A DNA stretch of 45,745 bases from Bacillota bacterium (GTDB taxonomy: Bacteria > Bacillota > UBA4882 > UBA8346). Below are positions 30,957-38,891 of the stretch, one piece after another (position 1 is the first letter of the stretch; every line of letters starts with the position of its first letter). The stretch covers positions 1 through 45,745 of the forward strand of contig JAAYHS010000141.1 in assembly GCA_012735315.1 (NCBI GenBank), read 5' to 3'. The notes beneath the pieces are model-generated. The model was given only the letters and a program-made list of their open reading frames with translations. It made no database searches and was not told where the DNA came from. The translations under genes and the position numbers were made by a program.

Positions 30957-32177
30957 CTAGTCCGGTTCAAAAACATCTTTGGCATTCCGGCGGCCAATTC
31001 TTCGCTTAACTTGCAGTACCGTCCCTTTGGAAACGATTTCTTCGCCGAAACGGTCCCGCAAACTATCGATGGTATGATGGAGTCTGATTAATTCAGGATC
31101 TTCGGATGCCGGCGGCTCTTCAAACAACTCCAATTGTAATGATTGACGATTATCAAAACCGCTAACGCTGACGCCGAGCAGCCTTACCTTTTTCAAACCC
31201 CATTGAACCCGGTTCGCTAATTGCAAAGCCTCCCGGTAAATCTTTTCTTCAAAATCGGTCGCTTCTTTCAAAGTAATCCTTCTGGTGATCGTTTGAAAAT
31301 TCTGATCGCGAATTTTTAGGGTTATAATTCGCCCCTTAAGAAAATGACGCCGGAGCCTCCGGGCTACCTGTTCGGATAGCCAAAGCAACACGCCGGCCAA
31401 AAATTCCCGGTCATCGGTATCCTCTTGAAAAGTAATCTCATGACCGATGCTTTTATAATCCTCGCCGGTTACGACCATCCGGTCGTCGATCCCGTGAGCG
31501 AGCAGATATAGTTGCCGTCCGGCTTCACCAAATTTTTGAACTAAAAAATCCGGATTTAACTTCCTGAGCATCCCAATGGTATGTATTCCCAATTTAATTA
31601 ATTGCGCCTCAGTTTTCGGCCCGACTCCCCATAATCTCTTGACCGGGAGGTTTGTTAAGATCTCCTCCATATTATCCTTGGTTATAATAACGAAGCCACC
31701 GGGTTTTTTGAGATCCGAAGCCAGTTTGGCCAGAAATTTATTCGGGGCCAACCCCGCCGAAGCGGACAGCCCCAACTCGCTACGAATGCTATTTAGAATT
31801 TCCCAGCCGATTTGTTCAGCCGGGCCGAACAGAGCCTCGGAACCGGTTAAATCTAAAAATGCTTCGTCCAATGAAAGCGGTTCAACCAATGGAGTATAGC
31901 GGTTCAATATTTTCATTATTTGGCGCGAAACCTCAGCATAACGCCACCCGCGCACCGGTAAAAAGATACCGTGCGGGCAGCGGCGCCATGCTTCCCGGAG
32001 GGGCATCGCCGAATGAACGCCGAACTTCCGGGCCTCATAGGAACAGGTGGAAACCACTCCGCGGGAGCGCGGATCTCCGCCGACAATTACCGGTTTGCCT
32101 AGATAAACCGGATTATCATGTTGTTCAACCGCCGCATAAAAAGCGTCCATATCAACATGAAGGATTTTGCGTTCCAT
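30957..32177 (-). CDS. dinB: DNA polymerase IV (Y family)
   Basis: A 406-residue translesion polymerase. Catalytic metal ligands are Asp9 (HVDMD) and Asp104-Glu105 (SLDEAF); YEARKFGVHSAMP is the finger motif; GVGPKTEAQL is the helix-hairpin-helix in the thumb; the little finger follows. QLELF near residue 356 fits the beta-clamp binding motif. It copies past DNA damage with low fidelity. The ATG follows GGGGATAACG. A perfect SOS box lies 48 bases upstream, so LexA control is expected. Confidence 0.96.
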   Translation of the reverse strand: MERKILHVDMDAFYAAVEQHDNPVYLGKPVIVGGDPRSRGVVSTCSYEARKFGVHSAMPLREAWRRCPHGIFLPVRGWRYAEVSRQIMKILNRYTPLVEPLSLDEAFLDLTGSEALFGPAEQIGWEILNSIRSELGLSASAGLAPNKFLAKLASDLKKPGGFVIITKDNMEEILTNLPVKRLWGVGPKTEAQLIKLGIHTIGMLRKLNPDFLVQKFGEAGRQLYLLAHGIDDRMVVTGEDYKSIGHEITFQEDTDDREFLAGVLLWLSEQVARRLRRHFLKGRIITLKIRDQNFQTITRRITLKEATDFEEKIYREALQLANRVQWGLKKVRLLGVSVSGFDNRQSLQLELFEEPPASEDPELIRLHHTIDSLRDRFGEEIVSKGTVLQVKRRIGRRNAKDVFEPD

Positions 32178-32224
32178 CGTTATCCCCTAGGCTATGCTTA
32201 GGTCCCATAATATATCTTCTCACG

Positions 32225-32238
32225 CGAACGCGCGTTCG
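32225..32238 (-). promoter_or_regulatory. LexA (SOS) box for dinB
   Basis: CGAACGCGCGTTCG is a perfect match to the Bacillus-type SOS box CGAAC-RNRY-GTTCG and a perfect palindrome. A TTGACG -35-like box overlaps its upstream edge on the minus strand, so bound LexA would block RNA polymerase. The dinB and LacI genes diverge from this region. Confidence 0.9.
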
Positions 32239-32324
32239 TCAAGGGTAATAGAAATACGACATTTTTAGCAAAATTTTTAAATATAAAAAAGGAATTTGGG
32301 GACCCGTAGAGAAAAATATGTTTT

Positions 32325-32338
32325 AAAAAACGTTTGCT
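32325..32338 (+). promoter_or_regulatory. LacI-family operator-like site before the lacI-type gene
   Basis: AAAAAACGTTTGCT shares the core AAACGTTTG with the two palindromes at 33368 and 34011, though its left half is degenerate. It ends 20 bases before the regulator's ATG, a position suited to autorepression. Confidence 0.5.
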
Positions 32339-32358
32339 AAAATAAAATCGAGGTTACC

Positions 32359-33351
32359 ATGACAACCATCAAAGATATCGCCCGCAAAGCCGGAGTCGCT
32401 CCCAGTGTGGTCTCCAGAGCCCTGAATAATAAATACGGGGTCAAGGATTCTACTAAAGATTTAATCCTAAAATTAGCCCAAGAAATGAATTATTATCCGA
32501 ATACCGCCGCCCGAAGCCTGGTAACACGGAAAACCGAAACTATCGGAATTATGATGGCCGACATTTCGGAACCATATTATTCACAATTGATTAAGGGCAT
32601 GGAATATATAGCAAATCAAACCGGATATACCTTGCTGTTTTCAAATTCATATGAAAGCGTCGAACATAATCGTGTTTTGCATAAAATGATTTATGCCCAA
32701 CGAGTAGACGGATTAATAATTGTCGGAAGCAATATTCAGGAAAAGAATTTTTCATTGTCCCTTTTGGAAAAGAAGATCCCTTTTGTTTTAGTAGAAAGAA
32801 ATTTCTCGGATCCCCGCGTCAATTGTATTTGGGTCGATAATGTCGGAGGAGCGTACCGGGCCACCAAATATCTTATCGAACAAGGCCATCGAAAAATCGC
32901 TCACATAGCGGGAAATTTATACTATCAAGTTGCTTTAGACCGGCTTGACGGTTATAAAAAGGCTCTTCTGGAAGCCGATATCGATTACTCCGAAGAACTG
33001 GTCGTATCGGGCAATTTTGTCTGGCAAAGCGGTTATGCGACAATGAAAGACATCTTAAGACATCATCCCCAATGTACGGCAGTATTTGCTGCTAACGACG
33101 CCATGGCTTACGGCGCCTTACAAGCGATTACCGAAGCCAAGCTAACCGTACCGGATGATATAGCGATCATCGGCTTCGACGATTTGGAGTTTTCCAGCTT
33201 AACCAACCCTCCCTTAACAACTGTCCGTCAACCGCGCTATCAGATGGGTCAAAAGGCAATGGAATTATTGACCGATATCCTTCGCGGCGAAAAGAAAAAT
33301 GGAATTAAAATCACTTTAAACCCCGAATTAATTATCCGACGCTCCGCTTAA
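32359..33351 (+). CDS. LacI-family transcriptional regulator
   Basis: A 330-residue regulator. Residues 3-25 are the DNA-binding helix-turn-helix (TIKDIARKAGVAPSVVSRAL), followed by the hinge helix (NTAARSLVTRKT) and a sugar-binding domain of the ribose-binding fold (IGIMMADISEPYYSQLIKGM; IAHIAGN; AVFAANDAMAYGAL; IIGFDD). It opens a locus of glycosidase-like and sugar-transport genes and is expected to repress them until an inducing sugar binds. The ATG follows GAGGTTACC. Operator-like palindromes are at 32325, 33368 and 34011. The sugar is unknown. Confidence 0.93.
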   Translation: MTTIKDIARKAGVAPSVVSRALNNKYGVKDSTKDLILKLAQEMNYYPNTAARSLVTRKTETIGIMMADISEPYYSQLIKGMEYIANQTGYTLLFSNSYESVEHNRVLHKMIYAQRVDGLIIVGSNIQEKNFSLSLLEKKIPFVLVERNFSDPRVNCIWVDNVGGAYRATKYLIEQGHRKIAHIAGNLYYQVALDRLDGYKKALLEADIDYSEELVVSGNFVWQSGYATMKDILRHHPQCTAVFAANDAMAYGALQAITEAKLTVPDDIAIIGFDDLEFSSLTNPPLTTVRQPRYQMGQKAMELLTDILRGEKKNGIKITLNPELIIRRSA

Positions 33352-33367
33352 AAATTTTTTTAACGTT

Positions 33368-33381
33368 TAACAAACGTTTGT
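33368..33381 (+). promoter_or_regulatory. LacI-family operator before the glycosidase-like gene
   Basis: AACAAACGTTTGTC contains the perfect 12-base palindrome ACAAACGTTTGT centred on CG, the standard form of LacI-family operators. It lies between the regulator and the glycosidase-like gene, 22 bases before the GTG. Confidence 0.7.
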
Positions 33382-33402
33382 CAAAATGAAGGAGGAATAA
33401 CT

Positions 33403-35598
33403 GTGGCTTTACTTCAAGAAGCACTGGTTGGAAGATTGGGTTCCAGGTTTAGCCTAAACTTCCGACCGAGGGAACTCAAGGTCTATTTGTCTCCGATGGG
33501 ACGTTTTTACGATCAACCGGTCGAGATGGGCATCGGTCTTCGTTTAAATGGAAAGAGCCATATCCTACCGTTTGCGAATATTGAAGGAATCGAAACCTTC
33601 TCCAAAGTCGAACAAGAATTCTTGGTCGATGGAGTTGAATACAAAGTTCGCGACGTTGAGTTGGGATTGGAGTTCGTATGCCGGGTTCACGCCCCCTTTT
33701 ATCCGGAAAATCGAAAAATATCCACTGCTCCATTCTTTTATATCGACTTGGCAATCTGTAGCTTTATCCATGGGCGAAGTAAATTTAAACCCGTAAACGG
33801 CGAATGGATTTTTTTTCTTTCCGGCGCCGAAATCCGTACCGATAAAAGTTTAACCTTACCGATAACCTCGCGATTAGCCAAAGATTGTTGGTATTACACG
33901 AATGAACGCCCTCCCGAATCACGCTCCCTTTTTTCAGAAAGCTCGTTTAACGGTGAAATTAAAGTGTGTCCTTTATTTTTAAATTCCACCTGGCAAACTA
34001 CTCATGAAATAACAAACGTTTGTTTATCGAAGCGGTTTAATCTGGAATCACCGAAACAGGTTTTACGAGAAACATTGATTATTGCGGGATTCCAACAGGA
34101 TACGGTCCTGAAAGTATGGCAAAATGATTGTCGCTTTTTGTATACCGAATATTTCGCCAATATCGATGAGGTCATTGAATATGCCCGTTCGGAGCGGGAT
34201 GAATTGCTCGAAAAAACGGCTTTATTTTGCGATACCATATACCATTCTTCAATTAGTAAAGCCGCCAAATCATTAATAGCTTGCGGATTTCAAAATTATT
34301 TGGCTAATTCTTGGTGGGTCCGGGATCAAAACGACGCCGACTGGTTTTTTGTCTGGGAAGGATGGTGCGGCTTTCATTCCACTTTGGATGTAGAATACAA
34401 CAGTTCCTGGTTCGCCTTGCTTTTCTGGCCGGAACTGCTCGCCAAGCAAATGGATTATTGGTTCCAAAGTATCCAACCCGAAGGTTTTCCCAGTCATGAT
34501 ATCGGTATTTTACTGGAGGTTAATTCCCAAGTCTATCCTCACCATATGCCGGTTGAAGAATCCTGTAATTTGCTTTTATTGACCTATGTCCTATGGCGTT
34601 TCAGAGGTTATCGGAAATGGCTGCGGCATTTACCGGAACTAGTCAAAGTAGTGAAGTATCTCTTAACCACGGATACTACCGGTAACGGCTATCCCAATAT
34701 AGGAGTGGCCAACACGATTGATGACGCCGCAGCATCGGTTCAATTTGCCAAAGAGCAAACTTATCTTGCGGTAAAGGTTTTGTCGGCTTTAACCGCTTTT
34801 CTGGAATTAACCGGCAACATACCTGATTGTGACATCCTTAAAGAGTTGGCCGCAAAATCGAACCGGATGATCGACAAAATTAAAGACACCATGGAATCGC
34901 AAGCCTGGTTGGAAGATCATTACGCTGTTTGCCTACCTCAATCCACCGAAGATTTAAAAGATGTCTGGACCGGGAAAAAAATCGAAGGCGAGGACCTTAA
35001 TGGTTGGGACGCCTATTCTTTATACACAACCAACGGCCTTCTGTTTCTGCTGGCGACCGGTATCAAACCGGATTTAAATTATGAACGATTGCTGATCGAT
35101 CTGCAACAATCAATGAATAAAAGTATTACCCCTTTTGGCTGTACCCATAGCAGCATTGACCGCAGTAATGTCTGGATATCCCAGAACTTCTGGCGGGATC
35201 AGATCGCCTGTTACCTAGGTATCGATCTGCTGGATATGGCGGAACGTTATTGGAAATACCTCGAATGGGAAAATACCCAAGGCCGCGGTGGATGCTTCGT
35301 AGACACTTATGGTTGGAATTGGCTTTCTTATTACCCACGCGGGATTACCTCTTTTGGAATTTTGGCAAGCGCTCTCGGAATGCGGGTTAATGCTGAAACA
35401 ATGACCATTGATCTGTCCCCGGTTCGTTTACCTTGCAGATTTCCACTAACCATTATAGCTGATTGGGAAAAAGGTTCCATCCCTTGGATTGAATGCCGGG
35501 TGGAGCATGGAAAAATCCGATGGCTGTTGGAAGACCAATCCCCTAACAAATGGCGAATCAACATCAACTTTGATAGTGTTAATTTACTCAAAAATTAA
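33403..35598 (+). CDS. (Alpha/alpha)6-barrel glycosidase-like protein, DUF4965/GH52-like
   Basis: A 731-residue cytoplasmic protein without signal peptide. The N-terminal part (1-255) is beta-rich; from about residue 270 it is helical with many Trp. Residues about 290-480 resemble six-hairpin glycosidases: EGWCGFHSTLDVEYNSSWF, then PSHDIGI, HMPVEESCNLLLL (like the MPVEESGNM motif of DUF4965/glutaminase-A proteins) and NTIDDAAAS. GH52 beta-xylosidases have the same order of motifs, and the match to any one family is distant. Acidic residues in these motifs are candidate catalysts. The GTG follows GGAGG by seven bases. With no signal peptide it probably acts on an imported oligosaccharide. An operator palindrome lies inside the gene at 34011. 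Confidence 0.6.
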   Translation: MALLQEALVGRLGSRFSLNFRPRELKVYLSPMGRFYDQPVEMGIGLRLNGKSHILPFANIEGIETFSKVEQEFLVDGVEYKVRDVELGLEFVCRVHAPFYPENRKISTAPFFYIDLAICSFIHGRSKFKPVNGEWIFFLSGAEIRTDKSLTLPITSRLAKDCWYYTNERPPESRSLFSESSFNGEIKVCPLFLNSTWQTTHEITNVCLSKRFNLESPKQVLRETLIIAGFQQDTVLKVWQNDCRFLYTEYFANIDEVIEYARSERDELLEKTALFCDTIYHSSISKAAKSLIACGFQNYLANSWWVRDQNDADWFFVWEGWCGFHSTLDVEYNSSWFALLFWPELLAKQMDYWFQSIQPEGFPSHDIGILLEVNSQVYPHHMPVEESCNLLLLTYVLWRFRGYRKWLRHLPELVKVVKYLLTTDTTGNGYPNIGVANTIDDAAASVQFAKEQTYLAVKVLSALTAFLELTGNIPDCDILKELAAKSNRMIDKIKDTMESQAWLEDHYAVCLPQSTEDLKDVWTGKKIEGEDLNGWDAYSLYTTNGLLFLLATGIKPDLNYERLLIDLQQSMNKSITPFGCTHSSIDRSNVWISQNFWRDQIACYLGIDLLDMAERYWKYLEWENTQGRGGCFVDTYGWNWLSYYPRGITSFGILASALGMRVNAETMTIDLSPVRLPCRFPLTIIADWEKGSIPWIECRVEHGKIRWLLEDQSPNKWRININFDSVNLLKN
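34011..34024 (+). promoter_or_regulatory. Intragenic operator palindrome in the glycosidase-like gene
   Basis: AACAAACGTTTGTT is a perfect 14-base palindrome with the same core as the site at 33368. It lies about 610 bases into the coding sequence, 643 bases from the promoter-proximal site, reminiscent of lac O2 inside lacZ. Confidence 0.55.
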
Positions 35599-35707
35599 TT
35601 CATGATTTTACTCCGAACAAATTTGTAAAAAGGAGGTGGGATAAAGACCAGAAAGAGTTTATCGTTAGGTTTTCCATGGATTATTTTAACTAAAGGGAGG
35701 AGTAATA

Positions 35708-37021
35708 GTGTTTAAAAACAAAAACATTACTATTTTGCTGGTAATTGCAGTGATCGTGATAATTGTCGGCATCTTGTTATTTCCGGGCGTCCAAAATTCA
35801 ATCAAGACCGTATTTAAAGGAGGTAAAGCAACAGGACCGGTTAAATTAACAGTCTGGGGAAGAGACCTTCCCAACGACGATCCGGCTCATGCATACATTA
35901 GAGCGGTAGTTACCGGGTTTCGAGCCGAAAACCCGGATATAGAGCTGGAATATATTGCTTTGGGTGATCCGGGACTTATGGACAAGACAAAGGTCGCCAT
36001 GGCAAGTAACAAAGACCTTCCCGACATCTTTCAAGGCTGGGGCGGTTCCGTTATGGGCGGTTATGCAGATGCCGGACGGCTGCTGGACATGACCAAGGAA
36101 TTAAAGTCAATCCCCTGCAGCGCAGCCGCGCGCGAAGCTATGACTTGGAAAAAGAAGATCTATGGTGTGGCGCCGTTTTTCGCCATCGCCGGTCTCTTCA
36201 TCAACGAGGATATCTTTAAAGCCAACGGGCTAAAAATACCGACCACCATTGACGAGCTGGAAGCAGTAGCCGACGCGCTAAAAGCCAAAGGTATTCAGCC
36301 CTTCGCTTGCGGCGCCAGGGATAAATGGCCGCCGCTGGCGTTGTACATGTACTTAACCGACCGTTACGGCGGGATTAATGCTTTCGACGACGCCCGGACC
36401 AGGAAAATACGTTTCGATAGCGACGCCTTCGTTCAAGCAGCTCAAAAGTATCAAGAATGGGTGAAAAAAGGGTATTTCGGCGAAAAACCGTTGAGTGAAG
36501 CATACGGCGACGCCGATAACCTAATGGCCACCGGCAAAGCGGCCATGCAAGTAACCGGTTCCTGGAAGTGCGCTCAATACGCCAGTAAGGATTTCACGGA
36601 TCAGAACATAGGGTTCTATCCTTTCCCCGTGTTGCCGGGCGGCAAGGGTGAAATCACCGATATGATGGGTATGGTCGATATCGGTTTCACCGTGACTAAA
36701 GCGGCCGCAAACAAAAAGGACGCGGTTGTTCGCTTTTTAAAATACGCCATGAGTGTGGAAGCCTGCTCTGCTGAAAAGGGTCGTATTTGCGCCGTGCCGG
36801 GTGTGAAAGTCCCTACCCGTTTGACCGGAATGGCCTCCGAAGTATTCGGCAAGGCTAAAGCAATTCAGTTTTGGTGGGATCAAGATCTGCCGCCGATGAT
36901 AACCAGCCCGTTGAATGATACCCTCCAAACCTTCTTTATGCCCGAAAGCGATGTCGTTAGAGCGTTGACGAAGTATGAAGAATTAGCGGAAGAACATCTG
37001 GGACCAGCTAAGGAAATTTAA
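35708..37021 (+). CDS. Sugar ABC transporter substrate-binding protein (CUT1, family 1)
   Basis: A 437-residue extracellular solute-binding protein family 1 member: VKLTVWGRDLPNDDPAHAYI, FRAENPDIELEYIALGDPG, LPDIFQGWGG, GLFINEDIFKANGLKIPTTI and GKAAMQVTGSWK are typical. The N-terminus is KNKNITILLVIAVIVIIVGILL, a helix without a lipobox Cys or clear cleavage site, so the protein may stay anchored in the inner membrane; most Bacillota homologues are lipoproteins. The GTG follows GGGAGG. The spacer upstream (35599-35707) has an unused AAAAAGGAGG at 35627-35636 and a shorter palindrome ACAAATTTGT at 35617. Two permeases follow. The substrate is probably an oligosaccharide. Confidence 0.92.
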   Translation: MFKNKNITILLVIAVIVIIVGILLFPGVQNSIKTVFKGGKATGPVKLTVWGRDLPNDDPAHAYIRAVVTGFRAENPDIELEYIALGDPGLMDKTKVAMASNKDLPDIFQGWGGSVMGGYADAGRLLDMTKELKSIPCSAAAREAMTWKKKIYGVAPFFAIAGLFINEDIFKANGLKIPTTIDELEAVADALKAKGIQPFACGARDKWPPLALYMYLTDRYGGINAFDDARTRKIRFDSDAFVQAAQKYQEWVKKGYFGEKPLSEAYGDADNLMATGKAAMQVTGSWKCAQYASKDFTDQNIGFYPFPVLPGGKGEITDMMGMVDIGFTVTKAAANKKDAVVRFLKYAMSVEACSAEKGRICAVPGVKVPTRLTGMASEVFGKAKAIQFWWDQDLPPMITSPLNDTLQTFFMPESDVVRALTKYEELAEEHLGPAKEI

Positions 37022-37041
37022 TTTATCCAATGCTACAGTAT

Positions 37042-37074
37042 GCGGAGCGGAGACATTCTTTAGTCTCCGCCCGC
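37042..37074 (+). promoter_or_regulatory. Strong intercistronic hairpin after the binding-protein gene
   Basis: GCGGAGAC (37047-37054) and GTCTCCGC (37063-37070) pair perfectly around an eight-base loop, with outer GCGG/CCGC pairs. No T-run follows. Such hairpins protect upstream mRNA ends, giving more binding protein than permease. Confidence 0.65.
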
Positions 37075-37092
37075 TTACAAGGAGGTGTTCGG

Positions 37093-38031
37093 ATGAAAAG
37101 CAACGCCAATGTATCTATCTTCACATCCGGTGTCAAGTATCAACTGAAAAGGGACTGGAATCTCATTATCTTTAAGAGTATCTTTCTCCTGCCCGCTCTG
37201 GCGTTTCTCGTGATCTTTATGTACTATCCGATCGAAGAGACGTTCCGTCTCTCGATGATGCGCGCCACCGGCCTGGGCGACACCGTTTTTATCGGATTTG
37301 ATAATTACTTAAGACTGTTTAAAAACGATGAATTTATCGCCGGTTTTATAAATGTCTTCGCTTGGTCTTTCTGGAGCGTGATAATTCAAATTCCTCTGGC
37401 CTTTTTTATAGCTTTTTCCTTATCCGTCTATAAGAACAAGATCACGAGCCCGTTACGCGCCGTATATTATCTGGCGAATATTCTACCGTCGGCGATCACG
37501 GCTATGCTTGGCCGGTTCATTTTTGCGCCCAGGTACGGGGTGATCGCCACAATTTCAGAGAAGTTCAACTGGACCTGGTTAGGAAAGATCGATTTTCTCG
37601 GAGATACCAATATCGTCTTCTGGTCAATATTCACCGTTGCTACCTGGGCTTATACGGGATTTGGCATTATCTATCTGATGGCGAATATCGAACAAATCCC
37701 TATGGAGCTTCGCGAAGCAGCGGAGTTGGACGGCGCCAATAAATGGCAATACGCCCGCTTTATCGTACTGCCAATGATCGCTTATCCCATCCGCATCCTC
37801 GCTATTATCAGCACCATCGGCAGTCTAAAATTGTTCGACTTGCCATGGATGCTTACCGGCGGCGGTCCGGGTTATTCCACCTCAACACTGGTTATTGCCT
37901 TATATAAACAAGGCTTTGTCAATTGGCAATATGGCAGGGGTTCCGCCATCGGGGTTATAATTTTCTTACTTGCTTTAATCTTCGCCGTGACCCAATTTTC
38001 GCTGCAAGGGAAGGAGGGTAGCGTGAAATGA
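37093..38031 (+). CDS. Sugar ABC transporter permease, MalF/UgpA type
   Basis: A 312-residue inner-membrane protein with six predicted helices. The EAA loop reads MELREAAELDGANKWQYARF then IVLPMIA, which docks on the ATPase. FLLPALAFLVIFMYYPIEETFRLS is the typical first helix. It forms the channel together with the next permease. ATG 37093 is chosen with AAGGAGG seven bases upstream; a longer reading covers the hairpin. No ATPase gene follows, so it probably uses a shared MsmX/UgpC-type ATPase from elsewhere. Confidence 0.93.
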   Translation: MKSNANVSIFTSGVKYQLKRDWNLIIFKSIFLLPALAFLVIFMYYPIEETFRLSMMRATGLGDTVFIGFDNYLRLFKNDEFIAGFINVFAWSFWSVIIQIPLAFFIAFSLSVYKNKITSPLRAVYYLANILPSAITAMLGRFIFAPRYGVIATISEKFNWTWLGKIDFLGDTNIVFWSIFTVATWAYTGFGIIYLMANIEQIPMELREAAELDGANKWQYARFIVLPMIAYPIRILAIISTIGSLKLFDLPWMLTGGGPGYSTSTLVIALYKQGFVNWQYGRGSAIGVIIFLLALIFAVTQFSLQGKEGSVK

Positions 38032-38891
38032 ATGATACATTCCTTGAAAAAGGCGTTTCTAAAAAACATAATCAATATTCGGAAATTTTTATTACAGCCA
38101 TTTTAATAATTTTAGCTTTAGTAGTGATTTTACCACTTTTGCTGCCCTGGTGTTTCGTATTTAAAACCCAGCTGGAATTCGCCTATTATCCTTGGAGCTG
38201 GCCCAAGGAATTCAAATGGTCCAATTTTCTCTTTGCTTGGGAAGCCGTCCGGATTGGAGAAGGTTTATTAAATACTCTCTGGGTTTGCATAGGCGCCATT
38301 TTATGCACAGTACCGACTTCGGCCATGGCGGGTTATATCTTCGCCCGTTACCGAAGTAAATTTACGGAGATTGTATTCTATGCCATTCTGGCCGGTTACT
38401 TCGTTCCGGTACAGATGGTTTTGATTCCGCTTTATCAATTATGCAACAACTTAAATCTAACCAATTCGTTACCCGGGCTTTTTTTGCCGATGACCGCCTT
38501 TGGAATCCCTTTTTGGACAATGATTTATCGTTCATTTTTCCGTAGTCTCCCCAATGAACTGGCTGAAGCCGCCTGGATCGACGGCGCGGGACATCCGGGT
38601 ATTTTCTTTCGAGTCATGCTGCCCTTGGCCAAACCGGCTACTATTTTAGCTGTCCTTCTTGTCTTTATTGGTTCTTGGAGCGATTATCTATTGAGTTTGA
38701 TCATGCTCAACGACCAAAAACTCTTTACCATGCAATTACGTATAGCCCAGTTTATGCAATCGACCGGAACTCATAATATGCCTAGGTATGGCGCAGCCGC
38801 GATCATCGCCGCCGCGCCCACTATTATGCTGTACCTAATCTTCCAACGTTGGATAATCAAAGGAACCTTAGCCGGCGCTCTTAAAGGTTAA
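38028..38891 (+). CDS. Sugar ABC transporter permease, MalG/UgpE type
   Basis: A 287-residue inner-membrane protein with six helices, overlapping the upstream permease by four bases (ATGA). The EAA loop is ELAEAAWIDGAGHPGIFFRV then MLPLAKPA. GYIFARYRSKF and the C-terminal QRWIIKGTLAGALKG are standard for MalG-type subunits. It pairs with the MalF-type subunit to move the substrate delivered by the binding protein. Confidence 0.93.
   Translation: MNDTFLEKGVSKKHNQYSEIFITAILIILALVVILPLLLPWCFVFKTQLEFAYYPWSWPKEFKWSNFLFAWEAVRIGEGLLNTLWVCIGAILCTVPTSAMAGYIFARYRSKFTEIVFYAILAGYFVPVQMVLIPLYQLCNNLNLTNSLPGLFLPMTAFGIPFWTMIYRSFFRSLPNELAEAAWIDGAGHPGIFFRVMLPLAKPATILAVLLVFIGSWSDYLLSLIMLNDQKLFTMQLRIAQFMQSTGTHNMPRYGAAAIIAAAPTIMLYLIFQRWIIKGTLAGALKG

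Follow-up and report, generated by a model that had tools for sequence, protein, structure and literature searches.

A candidate in-gene operator of a LacI-family repressor in a sugar-utilisation locus of a Bacillota bacterium

We have found a candidate operator of a LacI-family repressor deep inside the coding sequence of the gene next to that of the repressor, in a contig of 45,745 nt from a Bacillota bacterium (JAAYHS010000141.1, assembly GCA_012735315.1; the whole contig is hereafter called the window). The gene for the regulator (32359..33351, + strand, 330 residues) is followed by a gene for a GH52-like glycosidase (33403..35598, + strand, 731 residues, GTG start), and three matching sites accompany the pair: O_reg just upstream of the regulator start codon, O_gh in the gap between the two genes and O_in, a perfect palindrome of 14 base pairs (bp), inside the glycosidase gene. 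The evidence mildly favours the reading in which the locus is an autoregulated operon for uptake and hydrolysis of xylo-oligosaccharide-type sugars, with O_in acting as a second brake through a roadblock to RNA polymerase.

O_reg (AAAAAACGTTTGCT, 32325-32338), the presumed autorepression site, scores 16.0. O_gh (AACAAACGTTTGTC, 33369-33382), located in a gap of 51 bp, 7 bases 5′ of the glycosidase AGGAGG, scores 21.0. O_in (AACAAACGTTTGTT, 34011-34024), at offset 608 from the GTG start at 33403 and 642 bases from O_gh, scores 21.9, above both other sites and the top matrix score in the window. The scores were computed with a symmetrised matrix made from 21 sites at regulator orthologues in 15 of the 16 loci compared, with O_gh and O_reg in the training set and O_in left out. 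The core AAACGTTTG is common to all three sites and is found at no other place in the window. The initial annotation had proposed three matching LacI-type operators, one of them inside the glycosidase-like gene, with no further copy of the palindrome in the window. Footprinting and the co-occurrence of regulator and operator across the class give this proposal good support; the positions 32325 and 34011 stand, while the middle site begins at 33369 (not 33368), the in-gene offset is 608 (not 610) and the spacing is 642 (not 643). Judged from the sequence comparisons, it is very likely that the three sites are operators of the adjacent LacI-family repressor and likely that O_in can be bound by it. 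The sequence TTAACGTTTA at 33360-33369, whose centre precedes that of O_gh by 11 bases (about one helical turn), is possibly an overlapping weak copy.

Regulator orthologues, for which we required 60% identity or more across the matched part, are present in 15 of 29 genomes of the class, the host genome included (the copy in G008 is partial). The 16 loci compared were the window, L019, L022 and 13 further stretches. Twelve of the 16 loci have a AAACGTTTG site in the 220 bases preceding the regulator, and in 11 of these it lies no more than 71 bases from the aligned start (the site in L065 is at −184). A site after the regulator, at about +1008, which is the position of O_gh, was found in 10 of the 16 loci, one of these sites being CC-centred. 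Both intergenic sites are conserved. Among the 268,274 bases of the 16 loci, 23 sites score at least 16.0; 21 are the training sites, the other two are O_in and the L065 site that precedes the regulator, and all remaining matches stay at or below 12.7. Four upstream training sites (L054, L055, L056 and L063), at distances of 29 to 71 bases from the regulator start, were flagged as lying inside open reading frames (ORFs) and were counted as upstream, the ORFs being automatic longest readings or overlapping ones. No AAACGTTTG site was seen within 220 bases upstream of the regulator in L058, L059, L060 and L062 (genomes G018, G016, G028 and G022). Weak look-alikes inside the regulator gene of these four loci, at +308 in three (scores 10.8–12.5) and at +944 in L060 and L062 (11.9), fall in the background range. 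In a LacI-family survey, operators are described as mostly upstream of targets, commonly including the regulator's own gene, and as even palindromes with a central CG (PMC4052901); the sites found here have all of these properties.

Eleven of the 15 class genomes that have a regulator orthologue contain the exact sequence ACAAACGTTTGT, and none of the 14 others does; these genomes are related (8 of the 29 belong to one genus) and so are not independent trials. In total there are 19 exact sites, the reversed control having 4; two genomes, G001 and G014, carry the exact sequence away from the regulator locus. The variant GCAAACGTTTGT is less exclusive, being present in 12 of the 15 orthologue-bearing genomes and also in 3 of the other 14 (G017, G021 and G025), with 27 sites against 7 for the control. 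Twelve of the 19 exact sites are outside ORFs of 120–150 residues or more, five (L063, L089, L090, L092 and L095, the last 130 bases in) are near ORF starts of uncertain true position, and two, O_in and L085, are deep in a gene. The L085 site (G024:C9:7300-7311, score 22.0) is ∼920 bases inside an ORF of 509 residues, esterase-like by eye, and may be either a chance occurrence or a second in-gene operator of the regulator. As for a different binder within the LacI family, the host genome has one further LacI-family gene (C137); its helix-turn-helix (HTH) is different, and this candidate was rejected.

Chance expectation was assessed in the window and in the host genome (2.95 Mb). In the window AAACGTTTG has five strand-wise matches, all from the three sites, where 0.94 are expected; 1 of 100 shuffles reached five. 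The 14-mer with three mismatches shows no enrichment in the window (5 matches, shuffle mean 3.62, with 33 of 100 shuffles reaching 5). Genome-wide, a limit of one mismatch leaves two places for the 14-mer, O_gh and O_in; a limit of two gives 21 (13 for the reversed control), and ACAAACGTTTGT with two mismatches is not enriched in the genome (95 places, 115 for the control). The 10-mer CAAACGTTTG is found at nine places (control 5), seven of them outside the locus. Six of these seven lie inside ORFs of at least 100 residues and one (L014) outside an ORF; at least two (L015 and L018) are codons for Ala-Lys-Arg-Leu. Since the looser patterns are hardly or not at all in excess of the reversed control, the signal is confined to near-perfect copies. 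Many copies in unrelated genes, named in the initial annotation as what would speak against its proposal, were thus seen in part for the 10-mer and did not appear for the 14-mer with up to one mismatch. Matrix scores were obtained for 15 of the 95 genome places that match the 12-mer ACAAACGTTTGT with up to two mismatches (all 10 with up to one mismatch, 5 of the 85 with two), so weaker chance sites are incompletely counted; among the 13 scored places outside the locus the best has 18.0, and none comes near the 21.9 of O_in.

In the mechanism that we infer, the LacI-family repressor, probably a dimer, would bind palindromes of the consensus (C/A)ACAAACGTTTGT(G/T). Without inducer, repressor on O_reg would limit its own synthesis, repressor on O_gh would hold back RNA polymerase at the head of the glycosidase-transporter operon, and repressor on O_in would halt those RNA polymerases that escaped from O_gh or read through from a promoter of the regulator gene, a roadblock in the style of PurR at purB. 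With inducer, all three sites would be released together. O_gh too may meet polymerase from the regulator's promoter, because it lies 17 bases past the regulator stop codon and before the AGGAGG; O_gh is also what points to the glycosidase gene as a target of the repressor. One feature of an in-gene roadblock, a strong operator in the coding sequence of the inferred target, is present at 34011-34024. That repressors bound in a transcribed gene can block polymerase is stated, with PurR, GalR and CcpA named, in PMC10310618; according to PMC4132739, more polymerase passes a roadblock when binding is weaker or promoters are very strong.

The sequence evidence leans somewhat towards a functional O_in, working by roadblock rather than by loop. 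The site covers the codons (AT)A ACA AAC GTT TGT T(TA), which encode I-T-N-V-C-L. That conserved residues force the palindrome, an objection anticipated in the initial annotation, is ruled out: ITNVCL aligns with ITNIYL in L019 and with a gap plus QDICL in L007, so that conservation of these residues is poor and codon choice is unconstrained. From local codon fractions, a match to O_in given the peptide has a probability of 0.0006, and 7 of 2000 synonymous shuffles of the gene reach its score. All six third codon positions of O_in are shared with the same-genus orthologue in L019 (evidently the G001 locus, 69% identity), as happens in only 10 of 725 six-codon windows; the overall third-position identity of the two genes is 0.49.

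Several observations weigh against this reading. Of the 2000 synonymous shuffles, 77 produce a site of operator strength (at least 16) somewhere in the gene. At the same offset the same-genus orthologue has AACAAACATTTATT, which differs from O_in by two changes that break the palindrome and scores 11.0, within the background range (up to 12.7); G013 (55% identity) has no counterpart of O_in at that place. Identity at 12 of 14 bases is ordinary between the two sister genes, with 486 of 2180 14-base windows at least equal. In-gene sites in unrelated genes of the host genome have scores of 15.1–17.8 (among the places scored), and hence chance alone can produce a site as strong as O_reg (16.0). 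The three genomes with GCAAACGTTTGT and no close regulator orthologue indicate that the core is not exclusive to the regulator. A consensus scan of 32100-36000 revealed no sigma-70-like promoter near O_gh or O_reg.

The conservation of O_in rests on two comparisons. Apart from the window, orthologues of the glycosidase were found only in G001 and G013 (E-value 1e-30 among the 29 class genomes and 1e-20 among 398 sampled genomes of the phylum), with weak partial matches in G011 and G049 (27% and 23%). Conservation of the codons at 34011, a check that the initial annotation had recommended, came out divided: the third positions are kept in the same-genus orthologue, operator strength is not, and G013 has no such site. 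A strong O_in is known from one species only, and the evidence on its conservation is mixed. ATT is found in both G013 and L019, TGT in both G013 and the window, and parsimony over these three sequences makes AACAAACATTTGTT (score 15.3) a possible ancestral form in the genus.

Of the other explanations, the one that survives best, although we consider it doubtful, is that O_in is a chance neutral site, bindable by the repressor, not selected and of little consequence. The lack of an operator-strength counterpart in either orthologue, the frequency of in-gene sites among the synonymous shuffles, the scores in unrelated genes of the same genome and the second exact ACAAACGTTTGT deep in the esterase-like ORF of G024 all speak for a neutral origin. 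Such an origin fits poorly with the top score in the window, with O_in and O_gh being the only two near-exact 14-mers of the genome, with the shared third positions and, we would argue, with a position in the regulator's own presumed target gene, where a site would be unlikely to land by chance.

A lac-like loop, in which one repressor assembly bridges O_gh and O_in over 642 bp and raises the occupancy of O_gh, is improbable. The geometry resembles that of lac O1–O2, as the initial annotation had noted, in that two strong sites flank the gene start and a third lies upstream; loops of the GalR type, moreover, form without a LacI-like tail. It is the protein that speaks against the analogy. The regulator matches PF00356 (LacI, 57.3 bits) and PF13377 (Peripla_BP_3, 130.2 bits), both above the cut-off, and thus has the LacI/GalR architecture of an N-terminal LacI-type HTH followed by a periplasmic-binding-protein-like domain. 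Its residues 3–329 align with residues 2–329 of PurR, and its residues 3–318 align with residues 5–318 of LacI (360 in all), which leaves 12 residues over, versus 42 in LacI. The C-terminal helix is the tetramerisation element of LacI. In the alignment to LacI no LacI-like tetramerisation tail was found in the regulator, which places it outside the Lac-repressor type. Since the last part of LacI is missing, a loop by a lac-type tetramer is unlikely; in addition, 642 bp would be long for a dimer without a partner, and O_in is not maintained at strength in the two relatives in which O_gh persists. For these reasons the lac-loop analogy is weak, and a roadblock offers the simpler explanation.

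An internal promoter under the control of O_in, serving the transporter genes that begin ∼1.7 kb downstream or an antisense RNA, is very improbable, given that the scan of 32100-36000 shows nothing promoter-like near 34011 and has four promoter-like sites in all (two at 34496-34535, one at 34829 and one at 35602-35629) versus 8.4 expected from shuffles.

The glycosidase is known from partial matches. Two Pfam families match it in part, GtaA_6_Hairpin (4.2e-10) and Glyco_hydro_52 (5.2e-9); PF03512 covers residues 240–353 of the 731 only, with 36.1 bits against a cut-off of 25. The significant PDB profile matches are three beta-xylosidases (4c1o, 8qme and 4rhh) and cover ∼115 residues. The protein is probably a beta-xylosidase-type enzyme, as far as these matches indicate; its predicted structure was too poor for use (mean predicted local distance difference test score, pLDDT, 38.2). 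Downstream are the genes of an ATP-binding cassette (ABC) sugar importer (35708..38891, + strand), a substrate-binding protein (SBP_bac_1) and two permeases (both BPD_transp_1), presumably the remainder of the glycosidase operon. Regulator, glycosidase and importer are all on the + strand. The ORFs after the glycosidase gene of L019, read by eye, have names and order like those in the window, and inspection by eye of the stretch directly after the G013 glycosidase showed no ABC-importer ORF; the order regulator–glycosidase–importer was seen in two genomes only.

Xylo-oligosaccharides are likely to be both substrate and inducer, because GH43, GH67 and GH3 genes neighbour the regulator in relatives and because the glycosidase matches beta-xylosidases. 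Nine enzyme ORFs picked from six loci comprise three GH43, two GH67, three GH3 and the GH1 gene of L019, and ABC-importer-like ORFs follow the regulator, by eye, in 6 of the 11 loci listed (L053, L056, L057, L058, L061 and L062). Upstream of the L019 regulator, the GH1 gene (L019:3509-4852) adjoins a DNA polymerase IV gene; in the window, between 28000 and 40000, a counterpart was not recognised by eye. At L092 and L094 (G027:C108 and G016:C79) the same operator is near ORFs like lipoprotein substrate-binding proteins, with a ROK-regulator-like ORF in L092 (by eye), and these surroundings suggest a wider xylose-type regulon. In the host genome, CACAAACCTTTGTT on contig C68 (L081:3290-3303, score 18.0) is intergenic, ∼90 bases before a short ORF resembling the major facilitator superfamily, to which a ROK-kinase-like ORF is convergent (both named by eye); it is a possible further member of the regulon.

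If O_in is functional, a LacI-family repressor without a tetramerisation tail would be applying a second brake to a sugar operon from inside a gene. A more speculative view, to which we give little weight, is that the in-gene operator of this tail-less repressor is a recent acquisition, made in one species and stronger than the operator at the promoter, a young second brake in evolution; the host enzyme gene was found in only 3 of the 398 sampled phylum genomes, its own included. The case is a clean and testable one, as O_in can be erased by silent codon changes with the protein untouched.

Known systems offer three comparisons. With MalR of Streptococcus pneumoniae the window shares the operator core CAAACGTTTG, and a CC-centred variant there (rokB, CGCAAACCTTTGCA) resembles the O_gh of L019; the likeness is one of operators, with MalR governing a maltose regulon through sites that have CG flanks (PMC4451989). 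The exact ACAAACGTTTGT also appears in a paper on a Thermus regulator. With E. coli lac, where O2 is inside lacZ (PMC4052901), the window shares an in-gene operator in the first structural gene and others at the gene start and near the regulator. Unlike in lac, the regulator here lacks a tetramerisation tail, 642 bp separate O_gh from O_in and the top matrix score belongs to the in-gene site, whereas lac O2 is a weaker binder than O1 (PMC4132739). The LacI-family survey (PMC4052901) puts fewer than 1% of sites in coding regions, naming lacZ and purB. As its search extended only from −400 to +100 relative to gene starts, operators deep within genes may be missing from such counts. The third comparison is with the PurR site inside E. 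coli purB (He and Zalkin 1992, as cited in PMC4052901, PMC4132739 and PMC10310618): in both cases a LacI-family repressor, here of PurR-like length, has an operator inside the coding region of its target. The window differs in its putative sugar rather than purine regulon, in having intergenic operators as well and in a roadblock that is so far predicted from sequence. The window case joins the rare known class of in-gene LacI-family operators.

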